A stretch of 64,000 nucleotides of DNA from Paraescarpia echinospica (lineage: Eukaryota; Annelida; Polychaeta; Sabellida; Siboglinidae): positions 27,573,805 to 27,637,804 of the forward strand of contig CM034532.1 of NCBI GenBank assembly GCA_020002185.1, in the 5' to 3' direction. Below the pieces are notes generated by a model. The model was not told the DNA's origin. It ran no database searches and worked only from the letters and a program-made list of their open reading frames with translations. Shown piece after piece: positions 41,923 through 63,644 of the stretch (position 1 is the stretch's first letter; each line of letters opens with the position of its first letter). A program made the position numbers and the translations under genes.

Positions 41923-42214
41923 AGTAGTTATAGTGTTGTCCACAGTACGGGTCATGACCCGAGATCAAAGAGTTTTTCGTTTTTTATAAGTAGAATTTTT
42001 GCGTTTTTTAGCAGTCAGAGCACATTCTGAGTCGAATGGAATGTTACTTATAAAAAACTTGGAATGTTACTTATAAAAACTTGATTGACAGGTCCACGGA
42101 AGAGAGTGTGCCGACATCTAGTGACTAATTAGGTAATTAATTAGGTACTAATTAGCAACAAGTGAGTAGTGCATTCACTGAAGGGCAGCACCAGCAATAA
42201 GTAAAAATAGTAAT
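41923..42214. repeat. Left terminal inverted repeat of element A
   Basis: Pairs with 59099-59388 in inverted orientation with few mismatches. Landmarks: a gggtcatgaccc palindrome near 41950, several ttataagtag/ttataaaaac motifs, and an alternating ctaattagg...taattagg stretch. Confidence 0.9.
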
Positions 42215-43119: not shown

Positions 43120-43168
43120 ATAGGCAGGCGGTCACTGTGGCGGTGGATTGAATGGATGATGAGGTCGG

Positions 43169-44150: not shown

Positions 44151-44313
44151 ACAAAAATTGTTAGTTAGTGACGTTGAAAAAGAAAGCAGTTAGAGTAATT
44201 TGCAGCAGAAACAGCAGCAGAGTGGTGTTCATTGTTCTGCTGCATTGTGAGAAATGAATTGCGCAGTTGTTTTCGCGGTGACGTGTAGCGGCCTAGACAC
44301 GTACGCGGTAGCC

Positions 44314-44359
44314 TTACATAAGCGGCTGACGTCACTGGTTATATAAGGCGCTTATGTAA
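44314..44359 (+). promoter_or_regulatory. Promoter: CRE and TATA inside an 11-bp inverted repeat
   Basis: TTACATAAGCG (44314-44324) and its perfect inverse CGCTTATGTAA (44349-44359) enclose TGACGTCA (44327-44334) and TATATAAG (44340-44347). The arms resemble PAR/C/EBP-type bZIP sites and the centre is a consensus CRE. Orientation of the TATA box points to + transcription toward the RPA-like gene. Confidence 0.6.
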
Positions 44360-44594
44360 CTGTCTGTAAGTGCCTAAAACTGTAATAAAGGGTGAAATGC
44401 GCGTAAACTAAGCGGCCAATAATACAAAGTAGGGCCTGGAGAATCGTATGGTAAACTTATATTAAAAAATAAAAGCGGCGTTCTGTTTGTGCACTAAACT
44501 GACCGAGAGTTTTTTTCAGTTCTAGTAAACTTGTAAGAATCGGCTGTTTTTTGGCGCGCGTGCGCGAGCGCACGGTGACCATGCGCGAAGCGAT

Positions 44595-44603
44595 TATAAA
44601 TAG
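44595..44603 (+). promoter_or_regulatory. TATA box upstream of the RPA-like gene
   Basis: TATAAATAG about 90 bp before the ATG at 44684; a second, closer promoter candidate. Conserved in the first copy. Confidence 0.5.
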
Positions 44604-44683
44604 GGTCGGGCGGAGAACGCCTATGTATTGTCGGTGTGGTAACGTTGTGTTGTTGCCGTTGCAGAGCGTTGTAGTTGTTGATC

Positions 44684-45394
44684 ATGGTTCCGCCGCCGCC
44701 TGTTCACGGAGAGGTCCTGAAGAAAACGAAGTCGAAGGTGCCAACTGGCGCAGCGGCGTCCTGCGGCAAAATTAAAGCCCCTTCAGCGGCCGCTACGAAG
44801 GGGTCGTCGAATCCGGCTCTCGACGCAGAGCCTACTATGTCGAAGTCGTCTCTCGACGCAGTGGTGAGTGCGGTCGAGCCGACGACCGAGGTTACTCTGA
44901 AAGAGTTTGTGCTGGCCCCCGATGGAACGTATCAGATTATTACACCCGTACAAATCGTTGGCGTTGCATGGAAAAATAAATGCACGTACGTCGGCTGTCA
45001 CGCTTGTAAGAGCAAAGTGCGAGGCCTTGAAAGCGGTAGTATGGTGTGCGCAGTACATGGCGTGCAGGCGAAGCCGAAGACGTATTTTTCGGTTCGCATC
45101 CTGTTGGAAGGGCATGGCGGCGACGACGACGACGCTGAGGCTGGTATCTGGCTTACACTGTTCGACGAAGCGATATCGTCGATCGGCGATTTCGATGCCG
45201 ACTACGTGGCCAGCATGTTATCAGAGCAGTTGCGCAACAGTTTTGTAGCTAGCCTGACCGGCACAGTACTGGAGGTGACCGTGCACAAGGTCGTATGGGG
45301 CGGAATTCTGGACACGTACACTGTCCGGGATGTGAGGGTCGTGTCGAAGAAGGCGAGTGAAAATGAAGCGCGCGCGCACGATGTTCACTCTTGA
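44684..45394 (+). CDS. RPA-like zinc-ribbon/OB-fold protein (first exon or short form)
   Basis: Likely binds single-stranded DNA during protein-primed replication of the element. About 236 aa from ATG 44684 (atcATGg context; codons before it are not ATG). The N-terminal ~75 residues are low-complexity, rich in Pro, Ser, Ala and Lys. From about residue 100 the pattern KCTYVGCHACKSKVRGLESG ... MVCAVHG is a Cys-rich ribbon like that in the C-terminal DNA-binding domain of RPA large subunit, followed by the typical YFSVRILLEG, IWLTLFDEAISSIG, and later LEVTVHKVVWG strands. Such RPA-like genes are known from Helitrons; I do not know one as standard Polinton equipment. The frame ends at TGA 45394, but splicing into 45428 is likely. 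Intact in both copies. Confidence 0.7.
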   Translation: MVPPPPVHGEVLKKTKSKVPTGAAASCGKIKAPSAAATKGSSNPALDAEPTMSKSSLDAVVSAVEPTTEVTLKEFVLAPDGTYQIITPVQIVGVAWKNKCTYVGCHACKSKVRGLESGSMVCAVHGVQAKPKTYFSVRILLEGHGGDDDDAEAGIWLTLFDEAISSIGDFDADYVASMLSEQLRNSFVASLTGTVLEVTVHKVVWGGILDTYTVRDVRVVSKKASENEARAHDVHS

Positions 45395-45427
45395 ATGACT
45401 AACGATTGGTGTTTGTTTCGTCTGTAG
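45322..45427 (+). other. Short intron, alternative donors
   Basis: 3' end: an ACTAAC branch-point consensus at about 45398-45403, then a T-rich stretch and TAG at 45425-45427. Possible donors are GTGAGG at about 45328 and a GC-type AAG|GCGAGT near 45353; both leave phase 0, which fits the next exon. An in-frame TAG at the acceptor rules out read-through from upstream. Confidence 0.55.
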
Positions 45428-46228
45428 GACGCTGTAATCGCCGCTGCTTTGCGCAGCATCATTGATGAGAGCTCGCCCCCAGCCGAGAAGCGCGCTAAAT
45501 CGGAAACGCCGCCGCCGCCTCCTCTTCCGCTCCTCACTGATGAAGACACGCAGACCATTCCTCCTCCCTCGCTGGCGAGAGAAGCGTCGATGTATCGGCC
45601 TTCAAACACCGCTGAAGCTCCGACGTACGTTACATTGAGTCCGGTGGTGCCGACAACAACAGCATCACTGCCATCACCACGTCTGGACGTGTTGTCTGTG
45701 CTTTCGGACAACTTTATACCGTGGGCCCGCGACAAAAAGCCAGTGATCGTGGGCACCCTCCAAGCCGACTCGGAGTGGAGCGTCCTCCATTCGTACGCCG
45801 GACGGCAAAGATGCATGATGGCCACCTTCGCCGAAATAGTCGGCGAAAGGGTAATGGAAAGTGCGCGTCAAGAATGCGGTGAGTGCCCGCCCGAGGAGGG
45901 CTGTCCCTTCGTACATATGTACGGCTATCGAGGAAGGAAGCCGAGCCGACGGTACAGGCTTGTGTACGAAAACGTGGCGGCCATAAATGTGTGGTTTTTT
46001 TCATTGGCGATCGACAGCTTTCTGCAGCAGACGTTGTTACCCGCTATTCGATTGAACGCGGTGCTAGAAGAACGATGCGTGCGCGTCGATCGATTTTCGG
46101 AACGTGCACTCATGCGCCAAGTGGCCGACTGGCTCATGGGCACGGACTGGACGACTCCGTTTGATCGTTCGCTCTTGGAACTGGCCGTACAGCATTATCT
46201 GTTGAAAAGAGCGTGTCTCGCCGACTAA
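45428..46228 (+). CDS. Second exon of the RPA-like gene, C-terminal domain of unknown fold
   Basis: About 266 residues. The first ~110 are Pro/Ser/Thr-rich with charged patches (EKRAKSETPPPPPLPLL), probably disordered. The rest is compact: HSYAGRQRCMMATFAEIVGE, a Cys cluster CGECPPEEGC, VWFFSLAIDSFLQQTLLPAI, and a C-terminal DWTTPFDRSLLELAVQHYLL. No ATG occurs early in the frame, so it depends on the upstream exon. I do not recognise the family. A poly(A) signal follows at 46850. Confidence 0.55.
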   Translation, partial: DAVIAAALRSIIDESSPPAEKRAKSETPPPPPLPLLTDEDTQTIPPPSLAREASMYRPSNTAEAPTYVTLSPVVPTTTASLPSPRLDVLSVLSDNFIPWARDKKPVIVGTLQADSEWSVLHSYAGRQRCMMATFAEIVGERVMESARQECGECPPEEGCPFVHMYGYRGRKPSRRYRLVYENVAAINVWFFSLAIDSFLQQTLLPAIRLNAVLEERCVRVDRFSERALMRQVADWLMGTDWTTPFDRSLLELAVQHYLLKRACLAD

Positions 46229-46261
46229 TATGCTGTGGCGACGTTTATACTGCCGAATTGT

Positions 46262-46840
46262 TGAACGTATTGCGCGCTTAAGTGGCACCCGCATAATTAT
46301 GTATTATCCTGCTGTAGCAGTGCTGACTATATAGCGCTGTTTAGTTGCATCGACATATTTACCCTGCTGTAGCAGTGCCGAATTGAACATTATTTGCGCG
46401 GTTTATTTACACCGATGAACATTAACCTGTGGCGTCGTTTATACGGCCGAACATTATATTTGCATCCTGCTGTGGCAGTGCCGAATTGAACATTAATTGC
46501 GCGGTTTATTTACACCGATGAACATTAACCTACGGCGTCGTTTATACTGCCGAACATTATATTTGCATCCTGCTGTAGCAGTGCCGCATTGAACATTGCG
46601 CGGTTTATTTACACCGACATATTTACCCTGCTGAGGCATAAAGCCTTATTAATCTGCTGTGGCATAAAGCCCTTACTGTGTATAACATGTAGCGCGGCTT
46701 ATTTACCCTGCTGTGGCATAAAGCCTTATTACCCTGCTGTGGCATAAAGCCTTACTGTAACATGTAGTAGCGCGGTTTATTTACACCGACATAATCCGCT
46801 GTGGCATAAAGCCTTACTGTGGTGATGTATGATGATGATT
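46262..46840. repeat. Degenerate repeats between early gene and polymerase
   Basis: Motifs alternate: cctgctgt(a/g)gcagtgccgaattgaacatt, gcgcggtttatttacaccga, and later cctgctgtggcataaagcctta. About ten imperfect units of 40-75 bp. No open frame. Position in the middle of the element suggests 3' UTR, enhancer or origin-like function, which is inference. Confidence 0.7.
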
Positions 46841-46849
46841 ATGATGCTT

Positions 46850-46855
46850 AATAAA
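46850..46855 (+). terminator. AATAAA poly(A) signal of the RPA-like gene
   Basis: Canonical hexamer followed by an A-rich stretch, 620 bp after the exon-2 stop. Confidence 0.5.
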
Positions 46856-46869
46856 ACGTATGAACAAAA

Positions 46870-47540
46870 AAAGCCCGCCTCCTGTTGTCGACACGTCCAA
46901 CTCTGCGTCAACATTCCACTACAAACAAACTGACGACGTCCCAGTACAAACAAAATCGCTGCCATCCAGTGCGTCGATACTACGAACTGACGACGGGTGG
47001 TAAGACAGCTTCCTCCTCCGCTGCTGCTGCTGCGCCGCCATCCCAGTGTAACAAACAACTGTAGAGTAGCGCCAAAACAATTCGCTTCCATCCAGCTAAC
47101 GGACGGGGTAGCCGACAGCGCTGCCACCTGAAGGCTATCCCAGTGCAAACAAACTTGACGGTAGCGCGCTGTCATCCAGCGCTTCGATACTACGAACCGA
47201 CGACGGGCAGTAAGACAGCCAGCCTCCGCCGCACCGTCATCCCAGTGAAACAAACAGAGTAGCGCGGGCGGTAAGACAGCCCAGTGAAACTGTACAGTAG
47301 CGCCAAAAACAAATAAAACACTGCCATCCAGACATACCCAGCGAGCCCCTGCTAACGGACGGGGTAGTCAGTCGACAGCGCTGACACCTGACGGCTATAC
47401 CAGTGCAAACAAACAAACAAACGTGACGGTAGTGCTGCCAACTGACGGGGCGGTGATTTCGCTGACAAGCTGCGAACAAACCGTACGGCGCGCGAGAAAA
47501 ATTCTCCCCGCCGTCCAGAAAATGGCGTCTGTCACCACCA
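46870..47540. repeat. Repeats upstream of the polymerase gene
   Basis: Recurring pieces: cagtgcaaacaaac / cagtgaaacaaac, gctgccatccag, cgacggg(t/c)(g/a)gtaagacagc and ctaacggacggggtag, three to five times each in shuffled order. No protein domain seen on either strand. Probably promoter or leader of the polymerase gene. Confidence 0.6.
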
Positions 47541-47657
47541 CCACCACCTAGCGGTCGTTCCGCGCAGACTTATAGTCGGTGTCGGTAATTCGTCGTAGTT
47601 AATATCGTTCCGGGCTCGACAAGGTCGAACGTGCGTTCCGCGCCGCTGTCACCGACG

Positions 47658-50600
47658 ATGCACGCATACCCGAAATACGATCGAACGTTCGCCCGTCGCC
47701 TCAATATGGTGCGGCATCTAAAAAGCTGCGGCGGCGGCGGCGCCGGTAAACACGCGTGTCCGAAATGCAATCGATCGTTCGCCAAGCGCGACCATATATT
47801 GAGACATTTAAGAGTCTGCGGTACGCCGCCGCCGCCGGCGCGCAATGACGACGACGACCTACGGCGTGCCGTTCGTGAACACTGGTCGAGCATCCGTACG
47901 TCTATAGTGCGTGGTCCCGTCCAGTCTAGATATAATTTCGATATGTCCGACTGTTCGGACACGTCCGCGCACGACGCCCGACTACGACCGATGTTCGAGG
48001 CGCAGACTCGAGCTTTTAAAATAAATTTATCGTACGGGTTTATCTTGCGTCACAGGGAGACGGGCCGACTCAGGTACTACCATTCTTCGTGTAAATGTTG
48101 CGGACGCTATCTCGAGTCGCCCGTCCTCGTTACCGAAGCCGCGACATTCGAACGTTTCCTCGACGCCGCCCGACAGCCCAACGTTCTGCAGTACGTGATC
48201 GCGCAGCGACCCGACTCGGGGTGGATCGCCGAGTTGGTGACGAACATTACGTACTTCCTCAACGCCATCATCAACCATCCTATCGGGTGCGCGCGCCAGC
48301 AGCGACTCCCCGACTACCAGCGCAACAACAAGGCGCAAATCGGCCTAGCGAAAGATCGCCACAATCAACCGTACACCGACAACCTGTGCCTCTTCCGCGT
48401 AAACGATTTGACGAATTCGGCCTTAAGGCTCTACGCCGACTACAGCGCCGCCGGCGGCGGCCAACCTTACTACGCGTTCGCCGGCGTCCCGCTGAACGAA
48501 CTCGACCGGGTGGAGACGGTCGTCGAAACGAATGTGACCGTGTATCGACTGACGGAGTAGGGCACCACCGCTTAAGTAGTCCGCCGAACCCTCCACCGCT
48601 ACCCGACTACCATGAGCGTCAATCTGTGCGAGACGCACTATTCCTACATAACCGACGTCTCGCTGTTCTGTCGCTCGTACCTATGCGGTAAGTGCGGCAA
48701 GGCGCTGTGGCCGACCGTCCATCGACTGCGGCGTCACGAGGCGACGTGCGAGGGCGGCGTTCGCAACGTCTTTCCCAGCGGCGTCTACCATCTGACGCCG
48801 TCCGTGTTTCAACAGCTGGAGGACGAGGGCGTCTACGTGAACGAACGCCTGCGCTACTACCCGTACAGGGCGACGTACGACTTCGAGTGCTACTTCGACG
48901 ATCGCGACCTGCCGGCGGACAGCGCCAAATGTCGGTGGATAGCGCGACACGAGATACTCAGCGTGAACGTCGCCTCGAACGTCCCCGGGCACGAGACAGC
49001 GCGTCACGTCCGGCGATTCGGGCGAGCTCGCGAAGCGCCTGATCGACGCCCTGGAGGCCATGAGTGAGGCGGCGTGCGCGGCTCTGCGACCGTCGTTCGA
49101 CGCGATCTTCGAGGCGATCGCCACGCTCGACGATGAATGGCGAGCTCGCGCGAAGGAGAAGGAGGCGTCGCGCGATAAGAGCCCGTACACGGTGCTCGGC
49201 GACCGCCTGTGGACGCACCTGCGCCGCCTCCCCGTCCTCGGCTTCAATTCGGGCAAGTACGACTTCAACGTCGTCAAGAAATAACTGACGCCCCTGTTCG
49301 TGACCAGCGAGGCGCAGAGCGTCTCGTCGGCGTTTACGATCAAGCGTCAGAACAACTTCATGTGCCTAACGACGGCGATGCTCAAGTTCCTGGACATCAC
49401 CAACTACCTGGCCCCCGGCGTCAGCTACGACAGGTTTCTGAAGGCCTACGACTGCGAGGCGACGAAGAGCCACTTTCCCTACGAGTACCTCGACGACCTC
49501 CAAAAACTGAACGAGACCAAGCTACCGCCGCGCGAGGCCTTCTACAACCACCTGAAGCGCGAAGGCATCTCCGCCGCCGAGTATGAGGGTTGCGCGAAGG
49601 TATGGCGAGACGAAGGGATGACGACGCTGCGGGACTACCTCGTGTGGTATAACAATAGGGACGTGGTGCCTTTCCTGAAGGCCGTCGACAAGCTGTTCGC
49701 CTTCTATCGGCAGCGCCTCATCGACATGTTCAAGTACGCCATCAGCGTACCGGGCCTGACGCTGCTGTACCTGTTCAACGATCTGCCGTCGACGCTCCAC
49801 TTTACGCTCTTCAACGAAAAGAACAAGGACCTGCACCGGCTCCTACAATCGCAGATCGTCGGCGGCCCCTCGATCATTTTCGCGCGCTATCACGAGGCCG
49901 ACGTGACCGCTCTTCGGCGCGAAGAGTACGGCGAGTCGGCGCGGCCGTGCCGCTCGATTGTCGGCTTCGACGCAAACGGCCTCTACCTATGGGCGATCAC
50001 GCAGGAGATGCCGACGGGGTGGTACACGCGCCGTCGCGTGGAGAACGCCTTTCGGCCGGAACGCGTGCACCGCTACGGCCGCCTGGCCGTGGAGTGGTTG
50101 ACGTGGATGGCGGCGCGGACGGGGGCGCGCATACGACACCAGCTCAACGGGCGCGAGAAGCGCGTCGGCATGTACTGGGTCGACGGCTGCTGTCGCGAGA
50201 CGTGGACGGCGTACCAGTTCCAATGGTGCTTCTTCCAAGGCTGCCCGTGCACGGGGAAGGAGACGAACGCGGTGAACTGTACGCCGAGACGGCCTCCGTC
50301 ACGGCCTCCCTTCGCCGATTCGTCACCATCGTCGAGATGTGGGAGTGCCGGTGGTGCGCGACGAGACCGCCTCCGCGGAGCTGCACCGGCGACGCCGCCG
50401 TTACGCGGTCGACGATCCTGAAGGCCGTGCTCGACGGCACGCTGTTCGGCCTCGTCGATTCCGACATCGCCGTTCCGGCCGACGTGGTGGTACACATACA
50501 GCCGATCTTCAAGAACGCCTACATCGCGCGCGACGATCTCAGCCCGTTCATGCGTCGCTACGCCGAAACGCACGAGCTCCTCGCCCGGCCTCAGCGCACG

Positions 50601-51613
50601 CTCGTGGGGGAGCTTCTTCGGCGCCAAGATTCTGCTCGCGACGCCGCTACTGCGGTGGTATCTGCGGCAAGGACTCATCGTCGAGCGCGTCTACCAGATC
50701 GTCGAGTACGAGCCGGTCGCGTGCTTTCGTCCCTTCGTCGACACTGTCTCCGCCGCGCGACGCGGGGGCGACGCCGACCCCGACAAGGCCATCATCGCCG
50801 ATACGTTCAAACTTCTCGGCAACAGTTCCTACGAGAAAACGATCACGCGGGTCGACCTGCACCGCGACATCAAGTTCTGCACGTCCGCCGGCGCCGGCGC
50901 CGGCGCCGCGATGCTGATCAACGATCGTCGCTTCCGTCAGCTCGACGTCGTCGTTCCCGACGGCCTGTACGAGGTGGCGCTGAACAAGCGAACCATCCGG
51001 TACGCGCTGCCCATCCAGATCGGCTACAAGCTGGAATTTTACTACGATTTCATCGCCGCTTACATTCCGCGCCCCCTGTTCCAATACTGCGCGATGGACA
51101 CGGACTCGGCGTATTTGAGCCTCGCGGGACGCGACCTCGACGAACTCGTAGCGACGGCTAAGCGCGAACACTACTTTCGGCACCGCGGCGAGTGGTTCCC
51201 GTCGAAACACTATGACGCACACGCGGAGGCGTACGTGCGGCGCCGTATCGCCGCCTGACGAGTGTTGCGCGAGACGGCGCAGGTACAAAAAGCGAACGCC
51301 GGGCCTCTTCAAAGAGGAGTGGTCCGGTCGCGGAATCGTCGCGCTCTGCAGCAAGACGTACTACTGTTTCGGCGGCGACGGCGGCCACAAGTACAGTACG
51401 AAGGGCCTGAGCAAGCGTCAGAACGACGTCGACAAGGTCGTCTTCCTCGGTGTGCTGCGCGGCCGACGGAGCGCCGGCGGCTGGAACCGCGGCTTCCAAG
51501 TGAAGGAATCGTCCGTGCTGACGTACATTCAGGAGCGCGCGGCGTTAAGCTACTTTTACGCCAAACGTCGCGTGCTTGACGAAGGCGTCACGACGGCGCC
51601 GATACTCGTATAA
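47658..51613 (+). pseudogene. Protein-primed family-B DNA polymerase (Polinton type), decayed
   Basis: Would replicate the element from protein-primed ends. Roughly 1300 codons from ATG 47658 to a stop at 51613. N-terminus: two finger-like units, the first with both Cys changed to Tyr (YPKYDRTF), the second intact (CPKCNRSF...HLRVC). Then a domain with AFKINLSYGFILRHRETG and RYYHSSCKCC. The exonuclease motif TYDFECYF is near 48880 and FNSGKYDFNV near 49255. Polymerase motifs: FDANGLYLW near 49970, LLGNSSYEKT near 50815 (Glu where the family usually has Gly), and MDTDSAYL near 51100. Breaks: in-frame stops at 48558, 48573 and 49282; frame changes near 49005, between 50040 and 50800, and near 51230. 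The GC-rich codon use differs from flanking DNA. Confidence 0.9.
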
Positions 51614-51745
51614 GGGGGGACTCACTCACTAGAAGTAGGGATCCTACCTAGGGACCACTAGTTAGGACCTATCCCTAGGGGTAGGGACCCTACCTACCTA
51701 GGGACCCCTAGATAGGACCTACCCCTAGGGTATGTATGTATGTAT
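51614..51745. repeat. Palindromic CCTAGG-rich block between convergent genes
   Basis: Repeated cctaggga, accctacct and ccctagggg steps in both orientations form several possible hairpins, followed by (gtat)n. It lies just past the polymerase stop and before the poly(A) signal of the opposite gene cluster, so it may end transcription from both sides. Confidence 0.55.
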
Positions 51746-51793
51746 GTACGAACTTAAAAAATGAGTAAACACGCGGTACAGTTTTCATCGTTT

Positions 51794-51799
51794 TTTATT
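51794..51799 (-). terminator. AATAAA poly(A) signal of the virion-gene strand
   Basis: TTTATT on +, downstream of the protease gene on -; the only good signal at the end of the virion cluster. Confidence 0.5.
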
Positions 51800-51974
51800 T
51801 ACTTGAACAACCTCACTATTTCGGTCTTGCCTGCGTAGCGCGGCAAGGAGCCCGCGACCGACGGGTCCGACAAAGTCGGTTCGGAAACTCGGTCGTCTAA
51901 TAACAAGCGATAAGCGTTCAATGCGGCTTTAGCCAGTCGAATACGAGACAGTCGTTGGCCACCCTATTGGGGCC

Positions 51975-52367
51975 GAACAGTCACTGGAAGCCGCTTACCG
52001 GCATACCGCGGCATCGTATGAACAAGTAGGCGACGCAATATTATCCGCACACGTTAGATATACCGCTCTGCAGTCTCTTGTCGTTGTACGTCCACGAGTC
52101 GCAGTTGCGACGAAGGAAGGCGCGGAAGTCGGTGTGCCGCGGCGGCCGGCCGTACGAATCGAAGTACTCGCTTCGCCGGTCGGCGTCCACGTAGACGGCC
52201 ACCCAGTGCTCCCCCGGTTCGTCGCAGTCGTCGGTGTTGCACACGAACGCCGTCGGGGAGGCGGTGAGCCGCCGTACCGGTAGCTCGTCTTTAGGCACGA
52301 CGCCAACGACGATGTTTTTAGTGTACGCGTCGACCGCCAGGCGACGTATCAGCTGAAACGTGTCCAT
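51975..52367 (-). pseudogene. Adenain-like cysteine protease, interrupted at the active site
   Basis: Family role: maturation of virion proteins. From ATG 52367 the frame reads MDTFQLIRRLAVDAY, then GEHWVAVYVD with the catalytic His, SEYFDSYG with the acidic residue, and LQSGISNVCG. A TAA stop (52041-52043) falls between the conserved CG and the YC that holds the catalytic Cys; the frame continues with recognisable sequence to about 51975. The start overlaps the end of the capsid gene by about 50 bp in another frame. Confidence 0.8.
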
Positions 52368-53669
52368 CTGAGTAGTCGTACACGACGTTCCGGTTCTTGT
52401 CGATTTCGAGCACCGTCTCGAACTCCCCATACACGACGACGTTCACCGTCCGGGGGAGCGCGTGCGCGAAGTGGATCTCGGCGCGCAGGTTCCCCTTACG
52501 CACGACGTTGAAGTGTTCGCCGTCGCAGCAGTCGGGCGACAGGTCGAAGCCGAAGACGGTGTAGCCGTCGCCGAATTCGGCGCGCGTCAGGTCGAACCCC
52601 ACGTCCTCGTACGCCTTCCCCGTCGCGGCGAACAGGTTCATGTAGCTTCGGATGTAGCGCCGATGCGCGAAGTCCGGCTGCAGCGGCTTGCTCGGCACCT
52701 GGCGTCCGTCGACGTAGAGGGCGAGGAAGTTTATGTCGTTGTGCTTCGCGTTGAACGGGTTTTTATCGTAGGCCCCGTTGTAGGAGTCGTTGTCGATCAG
52801 GCACATGAACACGCGTCTCAGGAGTGTGCCCAGGTAGACGTTCTCGTGCGAATGAGACATCGTGCCCTGCGGTATCGAGAACACCTTGCAGTCGACGCGA
52901 CGCATCGGGTACTTGGCCGCCCCCGCGTCAACGCTTTGATGTGACCGAGCTGGACGGCCGGGTTCACCTTGGCCTTTCGCACCTGCAGGTAGGTCTCCAG
53001 CAGGACGATCTTGAACCCCGGATCGACGACGTCGACAAGGAGCGCGAAGGCGTCCTTGCTTCGCACCAGTCACACCTTTTCGTCGACGCCGTTCAGCAGG
53101 TACCGGTTTTGCCTGAACACGTCGACGTGCAGGCGTCCCATTATGTCGAACTCGCGGCTGCCGTGAATATAGTGGTGCCGATGCGCGTACCTGCCGTTGT
53201 TGTTCCCCGCCGTCTCCACGCGCCCGGCTGTGTCCTTGCACCACAGGTCGGCCTCGAGCTGCGAACTTTTTGCGTCGGACCCGTAACTGAGCAGGGTCTC
53301 GATGTAGGCACGGTACGGGTACGTATTGGTCGACGACGTCACGAGCGTGCCGTTCAGCGACAAGTCGACCTGACTCAACATCGAATGCAGGAAATTGTTG
53401 ACCGGAGCTACGACGCTGTCGTTCGCGAGATCGGTGCCGTCCCCCTTCACCACCTTGACGCGCACGTACAGTCTAACGGTCGCCAGGTCCAGATAGTCGT
53501 CTCCGGTGCCCGGAATGAGAAACTCGATAGGGCCGCCAGCGTAGAGGGCCGTCAGCGGCTGGAGATCGATCGTCTGGCCGCTATCGATGCTCGTCTCCGT
53601 CGTCGGGACGCTGAACAGGTCCAGTTCGCTCTTTACGCCCTCGCACGACTGTCGATGCATGAACGCCAT
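52318..53669 (-). pseudogene. Major capsid protein (double jelly roll), broken
   Basis: Forms the hexameric capsomers in Polintons and adintoviruses. From ATG 53669: SELDLFSVPTTETSID, GGPIEFLIPGTGDDYLDL, APVNNFLHSMLSQVDLSLNG and YPYRAYIETLLSYG of the first jelly roll. An in-frame TGA at 53070 is followed in the same frame by RSKDAFALL...VRKAKVNPAVQL. A frameshift near 52935 leads to AKYPMRRVDCKVFSIPQG, DINFLALYVDGRQVPSKPLQ and the C-terminal VNVVVYGEFETVLEIDKNRN. Two lesions in about 445 codons, otherwise well preserved. Confidence 0.88.
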
Positions 53670-53676
53670 TCTTCTT

Positions 53677-54105
53677 CTACGCGGGGAATACGTCGTCGCT
53701 CGACGTGTGCTCCTTTCGACGGCGCTTCTTCTTACTGGTCGTCGCCGGCGTGCCGGGCGGTTTTATGCGTCGTCGTCGTCGTCGTTTTTTCGGCGGTGGC
53801 GGAGGCGAGTTCAACAGCCCGTCGAGAAGGTCGGCGCCCGCCTCCTTCGCGCGTCGCTTTACCGACTGTTTCAAATTGCCGCCGGCGACGACGTTCCGCG
53901 CCACGCGCACGCCCGTATTGAGAGCGCGCTTGCCCAGCGCCACGGCCCCTCTCTTGATGAGCGGCATGGCGCTTCGAAACAAGCTGCCGAAGAGATTACC
54001 CAGGCCGTGTCCCCTCTGCGATCGGCCGCCGACGAACACCGGCAGGCCTCCGCCGACCTGCCGTGTGTAGTAGTCCTCGTACACGTTGCGCCCGCTTCTC
54101 GTCAT
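53677..54105 (-). CDS. pVI-like minor virion protein
   Basis: 142 aa, intact, starting at ATG 54105 and ending 8 bp before the capsid start. N-terminal half: GGGLPVFVGGRSQRGHGLGN and a glycine/arginine-rich amphipathic part (AVALGKRALNTGVRVARNVV). C-terminal half very basic, with PPPPPKKRRRRRR and a KKKRRRKE cluster. The GLPVF...RGHGLGN pattern recurs in Polinton/adintovirus proteins likened to adenovirus pVI, which sit under the capsid. DNA binding of the basic tail is inference. Confidence 0.75.
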   Translation of the reverse strand: MTRSGRNVYEDYYTRQVGGGLPVFVGGRSQRGHGLGNLFGSLFRSAMPLIKRGAVALGKRALNTGVRVARNVVAGGNLKQSVKRRAKEAGADLLDGLLNSPPPPPKKRRRRRRIKPPGTPATTSKKKRRRKEHTSSDDVFPA

Positions 54106-54107
54106 CG

Positions 54108-54953
54108 TCAGAACAGTTTTGACTTGCAGCGTCTCACGTGAAGCGTCGTCACGAATTTTCCGTGCTCGAATGGTATCGGCTGACCGATGTCGTCTCTTAT
54201 ATCTATCTCGATCGAATCGAATTGGCGACGCAGGAGCGGCGCGTATTGGACGCGGTCGAAGACGTTCGATACGATGTACCCGTTCGAACCGTAGGCGGGC
54301 ACGGATCGGAGGAGGGGGGCGAATACGTCGCCGACGATGCGCGGCTCCACGATGTCCGTGTACACGTACATGGTGTCGACGCCGCCGTTCATGTCCACCG
54401 TGTGGTCCCCCTCGAACTCGAAGGTATACCCTACGGGCAGGCCGTCATAGTCGCTCGACGGCGGCACGTAACTTGCGATACGGTCCGACTCTAAGCCTAG
54501 TATCTTTTTCAGGTGGCTCCGCGGGGGCATGTTAAATTCGACGCCCGCCGATAGACGCATCGTCATCCGATTAGAGACGGGGCTGTACTCCAGGCGCGCC
54601 TTGACTCTATCGGTGCTCAGTCTCGTCAGTGTCTCGTTAATTTTGTGCATCAGCTCGAAGGCGCTGTTGTAAAAGCCGTGCGGGATGGTGCCCTGCCGGA
54701 GAATTTTACTCTCGTCCGCGGTGGTATTCAGGCCTTCCTCCCCCGTCTTGCAAGCCAAGAAGAAGTAGGCGTCCTCTTCTCTCACGTTGTACCAGCTATG
54801 CGTGTACTGTAGCGACACCAGCCCGCATTCCCACCGCCCCGACAGGCCGACGCATTGCGGCAGATTCGTTGTGTAGTGTGTCAACGTGTTTTCGGGGTGC
54901 GTCTTCATAGACGCGTTGCTCGGCAACGTCACGAAAAAGTCAGACGACGCCAT
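54108..54953 (-). CDS. Minor capsid (penton-like) protein
   Basis: 281 aa, intact from ATG 54953 to a stop directly ahead of the pVI-like gene. It opens with SSDFFVTLPSNASMKTHPEN, then LTHYTTNLPQCVGLSGRWEC and GLVSLQYTHSWYNVREEDAY; near the end IEIDIRDDIGQPIPFEHGKF is followed by VTTLHVRR. This start-to-end pattern is conserved in Polinton/adintovirus minor capsid (penton, single jelly roll) proteins. No frame lesions, unlike the neighbouring major capsid gene. Confidence 0.75.
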   Translation of the reverse strand: MASSDFFVTLPSNASMKTHPENTLTHYTTNLPQCVGLSGRWECGLVSLQYTHSWYNVREEDAYFFLACKTGEEGLNTTADESKILRQGTIPHGFYNSAFELMHKINETLTRLSTDRVKARLEYSPVSNRMTMRLSAGVEFNMPPRSHLKKILGLESDRIASYVPPSSDYDGLPVGYTFEFEGDHTVDMNGGVDTMYVYTDIVEPRIVGDVFAPLLRSVPAYGSNGYIVSNVFDRVQYAPLLRRQFDSIEIDIRDDIGQPIPFEHGKFVTTLHVRRCKSKLF

Positions 54954-54962
54954 CGCGTCTAA

Positions 54963-55249
54963 TAGACGGACTCGGTAGTAGGTAGCCGAGGCAACTACTC
55001 AGCAGCGCCGTCCACATGTTGGAGTCGCGTTAGATTGTATATACTGACGACGATCACCGTGTACAGGACGACGATCTGGCACAGGAAGATGATCTCGGCT
55101 TTAGGGCATTCTTTACCGCAGAGACGCCACGGAACGTTCGTGACGGAGGAGTCGTCGACAGCATCGGGCGCATCCACAGAGACGCATGAGTCGACAGCGG
55201 GTTCTTCGACAAACACGCCTGAGTCGACGGCGGTATTCAGCTGCTGCAT
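54963..55249 (-). pseudogene. Small membrane virion protein, frameshifted
   Basis: From ATG 55249: an acidic Val/Asp/Ser-rich N-terminus, then GKECPKAEIIFLCQIVVLYT followed by VIVVSIYNLT, a hydrophobic transmembrane helix. This frame stops near 54995, while a second frame over the same region carries MWTALLSSCLGYLLPSPSIR, which belongs to the same conserved Polinton protein family as I recognise it. A frame break near 55025 separates the two. The gene lies 10-40 bp before the penton-like gene. Confidence 0.65.
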
Positions 55250-55528
55250 TGGCTGCTGCTGCTGTCGTCTCGACGGTGCACATCACGCGACTGCCGTCCG
55301 ACGCTACGGCGTCCTTCCTTTATCGCGTACGGGAGGCGGCCTTATCGCGCAGCAACGCCATAGATCGAGTTCGCCAACGGGTCCGTCTGGTACGAACGTG
55401 GCGCGGCGACCGCGGTCTTCTAATCTGCAGTCTACTAATACAGCACGGTCCCGTAATAAAGAACGAAAAGCCGTTGCACAGCCCCGCCTCGTGCAGTCGC
55501 CAGCATCCCGCATGTAGCATCCAACGCG
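55250..55528. other. Interval between membrane gene and integrase
   Basis: The only open frame of note on - is a 70-codon Arg/Cys-rich one (55320-55532) without recognisable pattern. It may be a remnant of the membrane gene's leader. Nothing supported. Confidence 0.4.
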
Positions 55529-56652
55529 TCATCCCTTATAGTCCACGAGCGCCTTGGCGTCGATCCAGCTATTGAACGAAGCCGGATAGCCGGACCATTT
55601 GACGAGCACCTCTTCACCCTTACCGCGTCGTCGACGACGTCTCCGTAGAACGACCTCCACCCGATATATTTTATCCTTCGAGACGATTATTTTTGTACCT
55701 CCGGTTCGTAGAAGGTGCCGTCCAGTATCGTGCCTGCGTCGTCCATCAATCGGTAATCGGGAGGGTCGGACGGGTGCAATTCTACGACGGTGAAGAGCTC
55801 TTCGCTCCAATTAGCCATGTACCCCTTCTTGAAACGTCCCTTCGCCTTGCTGATGCGTACGCGGTCCCCCTCTCGCAGTTTCGGCTTGTTTTTTTGACAC
55901 CCGACGCCGCCGTACAGCCGCTGCCACACGCTCTCCCGATTCGCTGCGTCGACGCTAGCCGGCGTCCTACCGATGCTTCGATGGTAGGCGTTGTTGTACG
56001 ACCGCATGAAGTCCTGCAACGGCTCCACGTACCTCAGCGTCTGATGCTTCGTGAAGTACCTCCACATGCGTGTCTTCAGCGTACGATTGAATCGCTCCAC
56101 GACACTCCCTTTGGTCTCCTCGTTGTGCGACACGAAATGGTGGACGCCGCGCGCCTTCAAACGCGTCTGAAGGGGCCTGTTGAGAAACTCCGTCCCCTTG
56201 TCGGTCTGCAGGGCGTTCGGCGGCTGTTGCGGCGACGACAGCAGGCCCTCGAAGGCCGCAACGAGCGCCGGACCGGATTTACTCTTCAACGGGACGCACC
56301 ACGCCCGCTTCGAGAAGACGTCGATGACAGTCAATAGGAACGCTATACCGTCGTTGTGTTTTTTCAGTTTAGCCACGTCGACGAGATCGGCTTGCCACTG
56401 CTGGTTTCGACCGCCCACGATAACGCAACGTCGCTTGAAACGGCGTCTGACCAGCTTGTGAAGCGTATAGGCGTCCTGCTCCGATAGCCACCGCCCGACG
56501 ATCGGCTTGGGTACCGCGGTCGCCCGGTGCAACGCATCGACGCCGCCGTAACTGCCCGCCCGTTTCGGGTCGAAGTAGGCGCGCTTCAGTCGGTCGTCAC
56601 GTTGTTGGCGCTTTCGTTGCGCACTACGAGACCGCCGGGACACCACCGCCAT
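55529..56652 (-). pseudogene. Integrase (DDE) with C-terminal chromodomain, frameshifted
   Basis: Retrovirus-like integrase that inserts the element. The first ATG of the frame is at 56652 (MAVVSRRSRSAQRK); codons before it are open but start with non-ATG. A LHKLVRRRFKRR segment precedes the catalytic core: WQADLVDVAKLKKHN (first Asp), LQTDKGTEFLNR (second Asp) and, 35 residues on, GSVVERFNRTLK (Glu). Then YNNAYHRSIGRTPASVDAAN, and an SH3-like LREGDRVRISKAKGRFKKGY. The frame ends at 55687 in a run of A; a shifted frame continues as the chromodomain (KIYRVEVVLRRR, EEVLVKWSGYPASFNSWID) to 55529. All catalytic residues are present; only the chromodomain is cut off. Confidence 0.9.
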
Positions 56653-56753
56653 GGCTCTTGCGACGATACGGCGAACAAGAGGGCGGCGACGAAGGCCGCC
56701 GTGATTACGCCGGCGACGACGACGACGACGAGTACTGATCTTCGGGCGGGCAT
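56586..56753 (-). CDS. Possible small membrane protein overlapping the integrase start
   Basis: 55 codons from ATG 56753, 13 bp after the preceding gene's stop. MPARRSVL leads into a strongly hydrophobic stretch of about 22 residues (VVVVVAGVITAAFVAALLFAV), then a short tail with two N-glycosylation-type sites (NES, NVT). It overlaps the integrase start in another frame. The tight spacing supports it; the GTC-repeat origin of the poly-Val speaks against it. Confidence 0.35.
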   Translation of the reverse strand: MPARRSVLVVVVVAGVITAAFVAALLFAVSSQEPWRWCPGGLVVRNESANNVTTD

Positions 56754-56765
56754 CCTCTACGGGCG

Positions 56766-57422
56766 CTAAAAGCTGGCCCACGGTATGCGTTCGACAGATC
56801 GAGTGCGGCCCTTTCGCTTCTGCGCGCGCTGTATGTACGCTCGACGCTGGGGATTACCGACGAGCTCCATATGGACGTTCAGCCGCTTTATATGATCCCC
56901 AAACGCTTCCCAGCCAACCGGCGCGGGGATCTTCCTCTTTCGCATGAGATCGTGCACTAGATCTACCATGTTGCTTCCGGCGATAGGCGCACCGTCGTAC
57001 ACGAGCTCCGCTCGATCGTTCCAGCGAATCAGCGGGTCGGCTTTCAGTCTCGCCATCAGGAGGCGGGCCTTTTCTTTCAAAACTTTCGGTACGCTCTTCA
57101 CGATCTCGCTCTCCGTATCGTCCGGCGATTGGTCGGGCGGCGGCGGCTGGTCGAGCGTCATCGGCGACTCGTTCTTCACTACGGACACTCGCATCGGTTG
57201 CTGCGCGCGAGACGTCTCCATGGCGTTGTAACGACTAAGCAGTTGATTGTACACCGCTACCTTTTCTCGTTCGGATAAATCCGTACGCTCGAGAACGGCT
57301 TTCATGTCGTTGTCCAGGCTACTCATCACACGCAACGTGGTCGTGGTCGGTTGCGATAGTAACGGGAGTAGACGCTCCACCATCCGGGGGTCTACCAACG
57401 CCATCTTCTTTGCGTACTGCAT
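56766..57422 (-). CDS. Conserved 218-aa Polinton protein, unknown role
   Basis: Intact. ATG 57422 overlaps the previous gene's stop as TGATG. It starts MQYAKKMALVDPRMVERLL, has a central Pro/Asp-rich linker (DQPPPPDQSPDD), and a C-terminal part with PLIRWNDRAELVYDGAPIAG, DLVHDLMRKRKIPAPVGWEA and MELVGNPQRRAYI, ending in a basic tail. Proteins with this C-terminal pattern sit next to the integrase in other invertebrate Polinton-like elements. No enzyme fold is recognised. Confidence 0.65.
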   Translation of the reverse strand: MQYAKKMALVDPRMVERLLPLLSQPTTTTLRVMSSLDNDMKAVLERTDLSEREKVAVYNQLLSRYNAMETSRAQQPMRVSVVKNESPMTLDQPPPPDQSPDDTESEIVKSVPKVLKEKARLLMARLKADPLIRWNDRAELVYDGAPIAGSNMVDLVHDLMRKRKIPAPVGWEAFGDHIKRLNVHMELVGNPQRRAYIQRAQKRKGRTRSVERIPWASF

Positions 57423-57766
57423 CAACCAATAGCCTGTCTGAGGAGGGGCAGAAAGGTGCTCGCCAACGGTGCCAGCAGTGCCGTCAGAAACGCGCCCGAC
57501 CCCGTCTGCAGGACGGCCCTCTTCCGTTTGATGGGTACTTTTTTCGACGCTAGCTTGCGCAGATTGTTCCTGTACTTTGTCAGCACTTTTTTGTTGTTAG
57601 GCGTCAATTTCACGTTCCTTCTCAGAATGTTATACGCGCAGTCGCACAGACTACAGATGAGGTCGGCATCCGCGTGGGCGATTACCGCTTTTCTCAGATT
57701 CGTATTCCGATGGTATCTACGCAACAGCTGCAAGGCCAGGATGTGCCTCTTCACGCGATCTGTCAT
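57422..57766 (-). CDS. Small basic/hydrophobic Polinton protein (114 aa)
   Basis: Intact from ATG 57766. N-terminal helix-rich basic part (MTDRVKRHILALQLLRRYHR), a Cys pair in LICSLCDCAYNIL, then LTKYRNNLRKLASKKVPIKR and KRAVLQTGSGAFLTALLAPL with a hydrophobic end. The KRK...L...G.GAFL..LL.PL ending is a recurrent signature of small Polinton/adintovirus proteins, perhaps a virion core or membrane-active peptide; the role is inferred. A truncated homologue is at 59389-59490. Confidence 0.65.
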   Translation of the reverse strand: MTDRVKRHILALQLLRRYHRNTNLRKAVIAHADADLICSLCDCAYNILRRNVKLTPNNKKVLTKYRNNLRKLASKKVPIKRKRAVLQTGSGAFLTALLAPLASTFLPLLRQAIG

Positions 57767-57804
57767 CCTGTCGAATGACGTCGGCCGCGACGCGCTCCGC
57801 TTTT

Positions 57805-58430
57805 TTATACTCTCGTCGGCGCGTATACGTACTGAATGCGATCGTCGGAAAAAATGGCCGTACGCAGGCGCATGGTTTCCGGCGTTTCCTGTTTCAAGTC
57901 CACCAGGAGGTAACCGTAGGCTGCTGACGTGGCATCTTTGAACGCCTCCACCATGTAGTTGGTTCTACCCGGATACGTCTGTTTCGCCAGGTGACCTACT
58001 TGCCCCGCGTCCCGGGGACTCTTGAAGAGGACCATATACTGCGCGTTTAGGCTGATTGTGCGATTTTCTTTCCCTTTCTGAAAGAGATTCTGCAAAAGCT
58101 GTACGACGGACACGTTGCAGTGATGACTTTTTTTAGTAAACAACGTCGTGACCCTACTATCGGTCTCCGACATAAGGTCATCGAGTACTAGAAACGTCCT
58201 CGTTTTCGCGTCCAAAAGCTTCGGATCCGGCAAACCGTCTACACAGAGTCGTAGGCTGTCACAGAGTCGTAGGCGGTTTGCCACTGGCCGTAACACCACA
58301 GAATTTTTTCCGGCGGCGGCTCAATCATACACGAGGCAAACTTTAGCAGGCGTGCAACGAAAGTAGTCTTACCGCACCCCGTAGGACCGGACACTATACA
58401 CGTAAAAGGATGCTTCCACTTTCCGTCCAT
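57805..58430 (-). pseudogene. Genome-packaging ATPase (FtsK/HerA-A32 type), broken
   Basis: Would pump DNA into capsids. The frame is open upstream on a non-ATG codon; the first ATG is at 58430, which corresponds to a Met also present in element B. Walker A GPTGCGKTTFVARLL near 58370, then PPPEKILWCYGQWQTAYDS. There a short tandem duplication near 58250-58285 (agtcgtaggc twice) breaks the frame. The second frame gives VDGLPDPKLLDAKTRTFLVL with Walker B LVLDDLM, SVVQLLQNLFQKGKENRT, and a C-terminal AAYGYLLVDLKQETPETM. Both nucleotide-binding motifs are preserved in sequence but not in one frame. Confidence 0.85.
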
Positions 58431-58467
58431 ATCGACGACTGGTGCGCATACAACGTTACGAAGACTT

Positions 58468-58920
58468 TTATTCGTTTCTTCTATACTCACGACGCACCTC
58501 CATCAACAATTTGCCGAGCATGTTCTGACCTTCTTTATACCCGTACTCGCAACCCCAAAAGGCTTCTTTCGACGGCACCCACTCCACCAATTCGGCGTCC
58601 CCGGTAGCCAATACGGCGTCTTTCAACTTTTTCGACGCCCCGAACTTACTCATCAACAGGCTCTTGATACACTCGACTCTATCGCCGTCCCATTCGGCAC
58701 TCGTTCTCGCTTTCGTGATCCCGTAACCTCGTCGCGTCGCTATATAGCCCGACCACGCCGATTTGATGTACTCCGCGCTTGCTTCGTCTGCGTAAAACAT
58801 CGCTTTTCTAAACTGGTAGGCGTGCTCGACGGATTTGAAACCCCGACCGTACGCCGCAATTCTACACGGATAAAAATTCGACAGGTACGACATGGACCCT
58901 CCGAAACGTATAGGCTCCAT
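58468..58920 (-). CDS. NADAR-domain protein (YbiA/DUF1768 type), element A
   Basis: 150 aa, intact, ATG 58920; first gene of the virion strand. Motifs of the NADAR family in order: SYLSNFYPCRIAAYG, FKSVEHAYQFRKAMF with the conserved Glu, ECIKSLLMSKFGASKKLKDA, ATGDAELVEW, and EAFWGCEYGYKEGQNMLGKL followed by LMEVR. NADAR proteins act on NAD/ADP-ribose-like N-glycosidic bonds; members remove ADP-ribose from guanine bases or process riboflavin intermediates. The family's usual WGD is WGC here. The stop overlaps the upstream end of the ATPase frame. The domain fills the entire protein; bacterial members have a similar length. A role against host ADP-ribosylation is inference. Confidence 0.85.
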   Translation of the reverse strand: MEPIRFGGSMSYLSNFYPCRIAAYGRGFKSVEHAYQFRKAMFYADEASAEYIKSAWSGYIATRRGYGITKARTSAEWDGDRVECIKSLLMSKFGASKKLKDAVLATGDAELVEWVPSKEAFWGCEYGYKEGQNMLGKLLMEVRREYRRNE

Positions 58921-58973
58921 ATCTAGACACGGACGACGACGACGACGCTATTGACTACATCACCTCACACGTA

Positions 58974-58986
58974 ACCACTATATAAC
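58974..58986 (-). promoter_or_regulatory. TATA box of the virion-gene strand, element A
   Basis: On - the sequence ggttatatagtgg lies about 60 bp before the NADAR ATG, inside a C-rich, repeat-poor spacer. Confidence 0.45.
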
Positions 58987-59098
58987 CTTACACATACGTG
59001 TCTGCTTTCTTTTTCAGTCACTAGATGGCAGCGCACATGCTTAACCATTACGCACACGTGACTCACATATAACCATTATATATCCTTACGCACACGTC

Positions 59099-59388
59099 AT
59101 TACTATTTTACTTATTGCTAGTGCTGCCCTCCAGTGAATGCACTACTCATTTGTTGCTAATTAGTACCTAATTAATTACCTAATTAGTCACTAGATGTCG
59201 GCACACTCTCTTCCGTGGACCTGTCAATCAAGTTTTTATAAGTAACATTCCAAGTTTTTATAAGTAACATTCCATTCGACTCAGAATGTGCTCTGGCTGC
59301 TAAAAAACGCAAAAATTCTACTTATAAAAAACGAAAAACCCTTTGATCTCGGGTCATGACCCGTATTGTGGAGAACACCATAACTACT
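59099..59388. repeat. Right terminal inverted repeat of element A
   Basis: Inverted copy of 41923-42214, ending ...ccataactact. A handful of substitutions and one-base indels separate the two arms, so the element is not very recent or its ends have not been homogenised. Confidence 0.9.
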
Positions 59389-59490
59389 GTCGGAATCTGC
59401 GTGGGCGAGTACGGCTTTTCTCAGATCTGTATTCTTGTATCTACGCAACATATGCAGGGCTAGGATGTGCCTCTTGACGCGATCTGTCAT
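59389..59490 (-). pseudogene. N-terminal fragment of the 114-aa protein, element B
   Basis: Reads MTDRVKRHILALHMLRRYKN and on to AHADSD, homologous to the start of 57422-57766, and stops exactly where element A's terminal repeat begins. Confidence 0.85.
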
Positions 59491-59528
59491 CCTGACACAA
59501 GTAACGTCTGCTGCGACGCGTTCCCCTT

Positions 59529-60137
59529 TTACACTCTCGGCACGTAGACGTACTGAACGTTGTCGTCAGGAAATATGTCAGTGCGCAGGCGCGCGATTTC
59601 CGACGTCTCCTGTTTCATGTCCACCAGGAGATAACCGTAGGCTTCTGACGTGGCGTCTTCGAAGGCTTCCATCATGTATTTAAGTCTACCCTGGTACATC
59701 TGCTTCGCCAGGTGACCCACCTGTCCAGCATCCCGGGGGCTCTTGAACAGCACCATATATTGCGCATTTAGGCTGATGGTGCGGCTTTCTTTCCCTTTTG
59801 GAAAGAGGTTCTGCAGAAGCTGCACGACTGACGCGTTCCTGCGGTGACTTTTTTAGTGAACAAGTCCTGTTTCTTCCATAAGGTCATCGAGTACGATGAG
59901 CGTCCTAGTTTTGGCGTCTAGGGTCTTCGGATCCGGCAAACCGTCTACGAACTCTACGTCGGTCGTTATAGAGTCGTAGGCGGTTTGCCACTGTCCGTAA
60001 CACCAAAGGATTTTCTCCGGAGGCGGTTCGATCATCGACGAGGCGAAACGCAGGAGACGAGTGACGAAAGTGGTCTTACTACACCCCGTAGGTCCGGCTA
60101 CTACACACGTAAAAGGGAGCTTCAACGACATGTGCAT
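59529..60137 (-). pseudogene. Packaging ATPase, element B, broken
   Basis: Homologous to 57805-58430. ATG candidates at 60137 and 60131. The Walker A motif reads GPTGCSKTTF, with Ser where a conserved Gly is expected before Lys, so ATP binding would probably be impaired. Walker B LIVLDDLM is kept. The frame breaks after EETGLVH (near 59853) with a small deletion relative to A; the second frame (LLQNLFPKGKESRT ... YVPRV) runs to 59529. Confidence 0.85.
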
Positions 60138-60174
60138 AGCGACGACTGGTGCCCGGCCGACGAATGTGGTATTT

Positions 60175-60681
60175 TTAATTGTTTCTTCTACATAAGGCAC
60201 GCACCTTCATCAGCAGCTTTCCCAGCATGTTTTGACCTTCTTGACCCCCGTAACCACAACCCCAAAACCCCTCTTTCGACAGTACCCACTCCACCAGTTC
60301 GACATTCCCGCTAGCCAACAGGTAGTCTCTCAACTTTTTCGACGCCCCGAACTTGGCCATTAACAGAGCCTTCATACATTCGACCCTAACGGTGTCCCAT
60401 TCGTCCCCCGTTCTCGTTTTCCTGATGAGGTAGCTTCTTTGTTTCGCTATATCAGCCGACCATGCCTCTTTGATATACTCCGCCCCTTCTTGGTCTTCAT
60501 TAAACATTGCCTTTCTAAACTGATAGGCGTGCTTGACCGACCTGAACACCCGACCGTACGCCGCGACTCGACACGTGTAGAAATTCGACATGATCGAGGC
60601 CGCTCCACGGAAACGTATAGGCGTATCCTCGTTTCCGGCTTCATACACGCGACTGGCCATTTCGTACATAAGTTTCTCCAT
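60175..60681 (-). CDS. NADAR-domain protein, element B
   Basis: 168 aa, intact, ATG 60681, with an N-terminal extension of about 20 residues compared with A. Family motifs: SIMSNFYTCRVAAYG, FRSVKHAYQFRKAMF, ECMKALLMAKFGASKKLRDY, EGFWGCGYGGQEGQNMLGKL, LMKVR. Roughly 60% identical to A by eye. The highly conserved Glu of SVEH is Lys here, so catalysis is doubtful. The frame is nevertheless free of stops while the ATPase next to it is broken. Confidence 0.8.
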   Translation of the reverse strand: MEKLMYEMASRVYEAGNEDTPIRFRGAASIMSNFYTCRVAAYGRVFRSVKHAYQFRKAMFNEDQEGAEYIKEAWSADIAKQRSYLIRKTRTGDEWDTVRVECMKALLMAKFGASKKLRDYLLASGNVELVEWVLSKEGFWGCGYGGQEGQNMLGKLLMKVRALCRRNN

Positions 60682-60739: not shown

Positions 60740-61213
60740 TATGACAGGTCATTAATCACAGCCACAAGAGTTCATCACTACACATACATGACATGTCATT
60801 AATCATATATGACAGGCCATTAATCACACTTCACAGGTCATTATTCATACTAGTTTTATAAGTAGGACTTGTTCTTACAAGTAGAAGATTTTTCAAATAG
60901 AAGTTTTACAGGTAGAACTTGTTTTTTCAAATAGGAGTTTTTACAAGTAGAACTTGTTTTTTCAAGTAGAAGTTTTTACAAGTAGGACTTGTTTTTACAA
61001 GTAGAATTTTTTTAAAGTAGAAGTTTTTACAGGTAGAACTTGTTTTTTCACCTAGGAGTTTTTACAAGTAGAACTTGTCTTTTTCAAGTAGTTTTTATAA
61101 GTAGGCCTTGTATTTATAAATATAGTTTTTTTACAAGTAGACCTTGTTTACACAAGTAGTTGTTTTTATAAGTAAAACTTGTTTTATAAGTAGGTGTTTT
61201 TATAAGTAGGAAT
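60740..61213. repeat. Terminal repeat arrays of element B
   Basis: First four copies of gacaggtcattaatca (about 60745-60845). Then about 15 imperfect units built on acaagtagaacttgttttt (60848-61213), which share the ttataagtag motif with the terminal repeats of A. Probably the outer end of B. Confidence 0.75.

Positions 61214-62863: not shown

Positions 62864-63619
<756 letters not shown>

Positions 63620-63644
<25 letters not shown>

Follow-up and report, generated by a model that had tools for sequence, protein, structure and literature searches.

A stretch of 64,000 nucleotides from the annelid Paraescarpia echinospica (GCA_020002185.1, contig CM034532.1, positions 27,573,805 to 27,637,804), hereafter the window, carries two NADAR genes of Polintons, one in a degraded element, A, and one in a fragment, B, that adjoins it. 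The NADAR of these elements is almost certainly an accessory Polinton gene under selection. Its product is probably an ADP-ribosyl hydrolase, and its use in counter-defence or lesion reversal is slightly favoured. Taken as a whole, the explanation that this is a YbiA-type NADAR of Polintons with an accessory counter-defence or self-repair function is considered moderately probable. Both frames were found open at the places given in the original prediction, which had been made from the sequence alone (Table 1).

The two proteins match the NADAR profile PF08719 with 87.5 (A) and 85.8 (B) bits, far over the curated cut-off of 35.1, and belong to the family as had been proposed. The AlphaFold2 (AF2) model of the A protein (predicted local distance difference test, pLDDT, 94.8) adopts the NADAR/YbiA fold, matching Escherichia coli YbiA (2b3w) and the Phytophthora nicotianae NADAR (8bau) in PDB. 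ADP-ribose is contacted in the Phytophthora enzyme by E43, K50, W89, R93, E125 and W133 (PMC11543638), which align with E32, K39, W77, R81, E113 and W122 of A on the assumption that the 8bau chain has two extra residues. The active-site Glu and Lys (E43 and K50 of Phytophthora) are both present in A and in 59 of 59 genome matches, eight loci being counted twice, and the Glu of the YbiA class (E113) is present in A, B and 52 of the 59. Judged from these alignments, the ADP-ribose site of the element NADARs is mostly kept.

The spread of the gene was followed in the genome of the host, which comprises 1.08 Gb in 3111 contigs. PF08719 gave 2556 first-look candidates, of which 150 were scored and all exceeded the cut-off; the A protein gave 2978, the best 150 being 79-100% identical to it and about 90 of these, by eye, free of internal stops. 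Among the best 30 matches to A, copy A included (L011-L040, A-type), NADAR adjoins the packaging-ATPase gene in every locus and a 114-aa gene is matched in 29, the exception being L029. Six B-like loci (L061-L066), chosen from the PF08719 rows by frame length and with NADARs 59-64% identical to A, all show the order NADAR, ATPase, 114-aa gene, with NADAR directly before the ATPase. A third sample comprises 20 loci of 6 kb each with frames of 188-291 aa, taken from the best 30 PF08719 rows (L041-L060). NADAR is 50-52% identical to A in 19 of these (the 51% class), and another Polinton gene lies within 6 kb in 19 of the 20. The neighbours vary and include a 219-aa gene together with the polymerase, protease, capsid-like or integrase genes, and an upstream gene resembling replication protein A (RPA), which in L049, L053 and L058 is a relative of the RPA-C-like frame of A. 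The ATPase pieces beside these NADARs are 63-67% and the integrase about 61% identical to those of A. A match to the one long interspersed nuclear element (LINE) query used was found near NADAR, short and upstream, in one of the 20 loci within 6 kb. NADAR is widespread in the Polintons of this genome, its position being variable, and it is in the gene set of several lineages, with no single host capture. The proposal that NADAR is part of Polinton gene order is borne out to that extent, but a fixed order NADAR, ATPase, 114-aa gene, which holds for A and B-like copies, is not supported in general; capture of a host gene at this locus only is contradicted by its presence in multiple Polinton lineages.

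Two local duplications were encountered in the third sample. A tandem NADAR pair precedes a single ATPase in L044 (643-1612), the second copy lying in two frames, and in L046, L052 and L059 two consecutive matches to a 281-aa protein of A stand behind the integrase, which suggests a duplicated 281-aa gene in that lineage.

Between A and B, NADAR shows 0.195 nonsynonymous (dN) and 0.696 synonymous (dS) substitutions per site, a dN/dS of 0.28 (bootstrap 0.17-0.48) that the decay of fragment B may have raised; the neighbouring genes give 0.25 and 0.13 (ATPase pieces) and 0.26 (remnant of the 114-aa gene). Mean dN and dS between A and B-like copies are 0.27 and 1.16, and dS between the 51% class and the other lineages is saturated and yields no value. 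Median dN/dS within lineages is 0.43 for 19 A copies, 0.65 for six B-like copies and 0.38 for 19 of the 51% class. On these substitution rates, the NADAR sequence is under purifying selection. The NADAR tree unites the element-borne sequences of this genome in one group with the proteins P0001, P0002 and P0271 (20 rows, 92/87), within a larger group that includes the P0003 type (25 rows, 100/99) and stands apart from 13 other NADARs. The NADAR and ATPase trees agree in outline, and inheritance within Polintons with occasional loss is the best reading of the distribution.

Several observations weigh against this account. The within-lineage ratios come from stop-free copies only and are biased downward, and about 60 of the best 150 matches to A contain stops by eye. 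B has Lys (AAG) at the position of the active-site Glu (GAG; E32 of A), and in 7 of the 59 matches Ala or Thr stands in place of E113; of the two elements said to have complete motifs, A does and B, a fragment, does not. Substitutions of the equivalent Glu in the E. coli C7 NADAR abolish rescue from DarT1; E88Q is inactive, and the effect of E88A in vitro is minor (PMC11543638). NADAR B is therefore likely to have little or no activity. Because riboflavin intermediates are further substrates of YbiA enzymes (PMC11543638), the fold leaves the substrate unfixed. The ATPase lies within 6 kb of NADAR in 5 of the 20 loci of the third sample and is unmatched in 15, and one locus (L051) has no other Polinton match within 6 kb; nested elements may explain the NADAR loci away from the ATPase. 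No element could be assigned to the relatives of P0003 type. Finally, many of the best 150 ATPase matches, the larger part by eye, form a near-identical family with a frame of 226-227 aa, and none of the five loci opened (L067-L071) has NADAR before the ATPase, so a high copy number does not depend on the gene.

The mutual homology of these five loci starts at or near an AGTAGTGG terminus, 381-455 bp ahead of the ATPase ATG; in A, with NADAR between, the distance is 958 bp. L070 has one 21-residue NADAR match (E 0.96), and a sixth locus, L072, is A-like with a broken NADAR. In the ATPase tree (67 columns, midpoint-rooted), the NADAR-less copies group weakly with A (81/88) and the 51% class stands apart (100/99), other NADAR-bearing rows lying between without resolution. 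The simplest reading of this weak tree is that the NADAR before the ATPase was lost in the high-copy relative.

In the proposed mechanism, the NADAR protein would bind ADP-ribose and break the N-glycosidic bond that joins it to guanine or to an acceptor of similar kind. The enzyme would thereby strip ADP-ribose placed by host transferases on the DNA or RNA of the element as it replicates or produces virions, and the outcome for the element would be an accessory function in counter-defence or self-repair. Such a counter-measure to ADP-ribosylation fits the fold, the active site and the selection described above. A further-reaching version is unlikely; here the hydrolase would have been inherited since the ancestor of the sampled lineages as an anti-defence gene for a virion-making life, and been dropped by a branch that turned high-copy and purely genome-bound.

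The best surviving alternative, itself rather unlikely, is that the enzyme clears small ADP-ribose signals or NAD breakdown products of host immune NADases and leaves nucleic-acid adducts alone. This role has been proposed for viral NADARs, above all those of phage (PMC9503650), and would agree with the mostly kept ADP-ribose site; however, those NADAR and YbiA enzymes that have been assayed are active on guanine-ADP-ribose within DNA (PMC11543638, PMC11125620), and macromolecular targets are favoured for the NADARs of eukaryotic RNA viruses (PMC9503650). A housekeeping N-glycosidase, cleaning up riboflavin intermediates or damaged nucleotides without special use against the host, is improbable, although the element protein is YbiA-like and such activity occurs in bacterial and plant NADARs (PMC11543638). 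Selected genes in several element lineages would more likely serve replication or conflict. Animals, moreover, obtain their riboflavin from food. A structural or regulatory partnership with the packaging ATPase would agree with the overlap of the two frames, which has an identical offset in both copies, and with their adjacency in all A-type and B-like loci, but 15 loci of the third sample lack an ATPase match within 6 kb and in the high-copy relative no NADAR precedes the ATPase; this option is highly improbable, and a packaging-linked role of the enzyme has become less likely. Passenger genes of host or foreign origin, acquired by accident and useless to the element, are hardly credible: many copies are decayed and animals do have NADAR genes (PMC11125620), but dN/dS is well below 1 between diverged element lineages, the two trees agree in outline and the active site is mostly kept.

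Fragment B is cut where the right terminus of A (59388) abuts its 114-aa gene, and tblastn of the A proteins (E 1e-4) over the window matched nothing of B beyond NADAR, the ATPase and the remnant of that gene. As predicted, each NADAR is followed by an ATPase frame on the same strand, the first piece of which exceeds the Adeno_IVa2 cut-off of 21 bits (A 26.2, B 21.7) and is assigned to the packaging ATPase; the region is present in both copies and split over frames in both. The 114-aa gene expected next is whole in A, while B keeps 34 codons. A and B are 68-69% identical in NADAR, 72-82% in the ATPase pieces and 80-82% in the 114-aa product, that is, closer than the figure of about 60% first given. 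The NADAR and ATPase frames overlap at 58468-58490 (A) and 60175-60200 (B) with the same +1 offset, and in both the ATPase frame can begin no earlier than at a GTG, there being no ATG in or before the overlap. TATA-like words do stand upstream of each NADAR ATG, at 64 bp in A and 50 bp in B (TATATAAA), but as a promoter signal they appear weak, since shuffling the mononucleotides of the last 120 bp yields TATAWA in 6% (A) and 13% (B) of cases. A degenerate tandem array of ACAAGTAG-type units lies upstream of NADAR B (60854-61209) and is perhaps part of the terminal repeat of B. Beyond the fragment, a C2H2 zinc-finger array in 84-bp repeats occupies 62864-63644.

Polintons are marked by terminal inverted repeats (TIRs) beginning with AGT and by a target-site duplication of 6 bp. 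Element A spans 17.5 kb (41923-59388) and has ends of the form AGT...ACT, with flanking hexamers that are unequal (CATAAT and GTCGGA) and form no target-site duplication. The window also contains a tandem near-identical duplication of 17-18 kb (98-99.6%; 11554-27653 and 28654-45792), either real or an assembly artefact, which takes in the left end and first genes of A. Rearrangement or misassembly may therefore have affected the left end of A, and the absent target-site duplication is explicable in this way since that part is duplicated. The NADAR, integrase, 281-, 219- and 114-aa genes are open in A, whereas the polymerase, capsid-like and ATPase regions are broken over several frames. NADAR is the first gene inside the right end, in the slot between the terminal repeat and the packaging ATPase. 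The rve integrase scores 47.2 bits against a PF00665 cut-off of 32.6, in keeping with Polinton/Maverick elements; its relatives number 4309 proteins at E <= 0.001 among 7994 scored, and many of the 120 listed have a chromodomain. One of the several polymerase frames scores 17.8 bits with DNA_pol_B_2, below the cut-off of 25.8, and the region had no match in PDB. The 281-aa gene is presumed to lie in the capsid region, and the name capsid-like is likewise our assumption: the 281-aa protein has no Pfam match, and the capsid-like region gave no Pfam and no convincing PDB match that would mark a jelly-roll capsid protein. The Pfam search with the 219-aa protein returned nothing over cut-off. Elsewhere in the window, a LINE-like frame of 910 aa (9342-12074) matches reverse transcriptase and, weakly, endonuclease.

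Table 1. Features of element A and fragment B, in window coordinates.
Feature	Position	Strand	Basis
Left terminal inverted repeat of A	41923..42214	.	begins AGT
RPA-C-like frame of A	44684..45391	+	PF08646 E 0.0031, under cut-off
DNA polymerase B region, several frames	49285..51610	+	DNA_pol_B_2 E 0.0016, one piece, under cut-off
Cysteine-protease-like frame	52044..52442	-	weak match to S273R protease, E 0.018
Capsid-like region (presumed), two frames	52318..53669	-	open frames; first part recurs at 60-63%
281-aa gene of A, presumed capsid region	54108..54953	-	open frame; recurs at NADAR loci
rve integrase of A, 364 aa	55687..56781	-	PF00665 E 2.8e-12
219-aa gene of A, no assigned role	56766..57425	-	open frame; recurs at NADAR loci
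114-aa gene of A	57422..57766	-	open frame; matched in 29/30 A-type loci, A included
Packaging-ATPase region of A, two frames (58239-58490, 57805-58299)	57805..58490	-	Adeno_IVa2, first piece; tblastn
NADAR gene of A, 150 aa, open	58468..58920	-	PF08719 E 1.5e-24; AF2 pLDDT 94.8; PDB matches YbiA and Phytophthora NADAR
Right terminal inverted repeat of A	59099..59388	.	ends ...ACT; 96.6% to left repeat, 292 columns
Remnant of 114-aa gene of B, 34 codons	59389..59490	-	tblastn 80%; cut by terminus of A
Packaging-ATPase region of B, split over frames	59529..60200	-	Adeno_IVa2, first piece; 72-76% to A
NADAR gene of B, 168 aa, open, active-site Glu to Lys	60175..60681	-	PF08719 E 5.1e-24; codon check

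Outside this genome, P0003 and most of P0241-P0298 form a many-copy NADAR family, with clusters of up to 74 members that mostly have an EWVxSxExFWG stretch. Among 120 listed rows, the 70 NADAR rows on large contigs of one source were compared with integrase rows (118 of 120 used), and three seemingly share a contig with one (0.007 expected by chance shift). The family at first resembled further Polinton NADARs but stays unassigned, as two genes on one contig need not belong to one element and NADAR also occurs in oyster Tx1 LINEs (PMC12477816). The viral contigs of IMG/VR contained no relative of NADAR A, the B ATPase, alignment A1, the integrase, the 281-aa protein or the DNA motif, and are uninformative on the spread of the element since no gene tried had a relative there. 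The EWVxSxExFWG DNA motif gave two matches in prokaryote contigs, neither frame a NADAR.

The element NADARs resemble the YbiA-family proteins of E. coli and Phytophthora in fold, ADP-ribose-site residues and YbiA-class Glu, and differ in being borne by Polintons. A, B, B-like and P0003-type proteins have a stretch of EWVxSxExFWG type where other NADARs have EGNxWxDxFWG; the 51% class has neither. The DarT1-NADAR toxin-antitoxin systems and phage NADARs belong to the same enzyme family. NADARs are known in nucleocytoplasmic large DNA viruses and invertebrate RNA viruses, with a proposed role in conflict (PMC9503650), and these share the fold and carriage by a eukaryotic virus; the words Polinton, Maverick and adintovirus are absent from the main text of that survey. 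NADAR domains also occur in retrotransposons, namely Gypsy Pol of Ectocarpus and Tx1 LINE ORF1 of Crassostrea gigas (PMC12477816). Carriage by eukaryotic mobile elements is common to both, but there NADAR is a domain of a retrotransposon protein, whereas the Polinton NADAR has a gene to itself in a DNA element that also contains integrase, ATPase and putative polymerase regions. With Polinton/Maverick elements, A shares the AGT TIRs, rve integrase, IVa2-like ATPase and, putatively, a polymerase B region; a figure legend of PMC10328495 lists pPolB, major (MCP) and minor (mCP) capsid proteins, integrase, protease, ATPase and TIRs, and no NADAR. Searches of the open-licence literature, which mostly excludes subscription papers where a report may exist, found no paper joining NADAR, DUF1768 or YbiA with Polinton, or NADAR with adintovirus, and none on element NADARs, by title, under Polinton and ADP-ribosylation.

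NADARs occur in animals including molluscs, and the function of eukaryotic NADARs is described as an open question (PMC11125620). A NADAR that is selected, many-copied and sometimes missing offers a ready-made comparison, within one genome, between lineages that have the gene and lineages that lack it, and the 150-aa NADAR of A is an assayable protein. If the activity holds, eukaryotic DNA mobile elements would be under pressure from the ADP-ribosylation of nucleic acids or from NAD chemistry of a related kind; if the ancestral anti-defence version were true, host ADP-ribosylation of nucleic acids would be a defence against the DNA transposon-viruses of eukaryotes.
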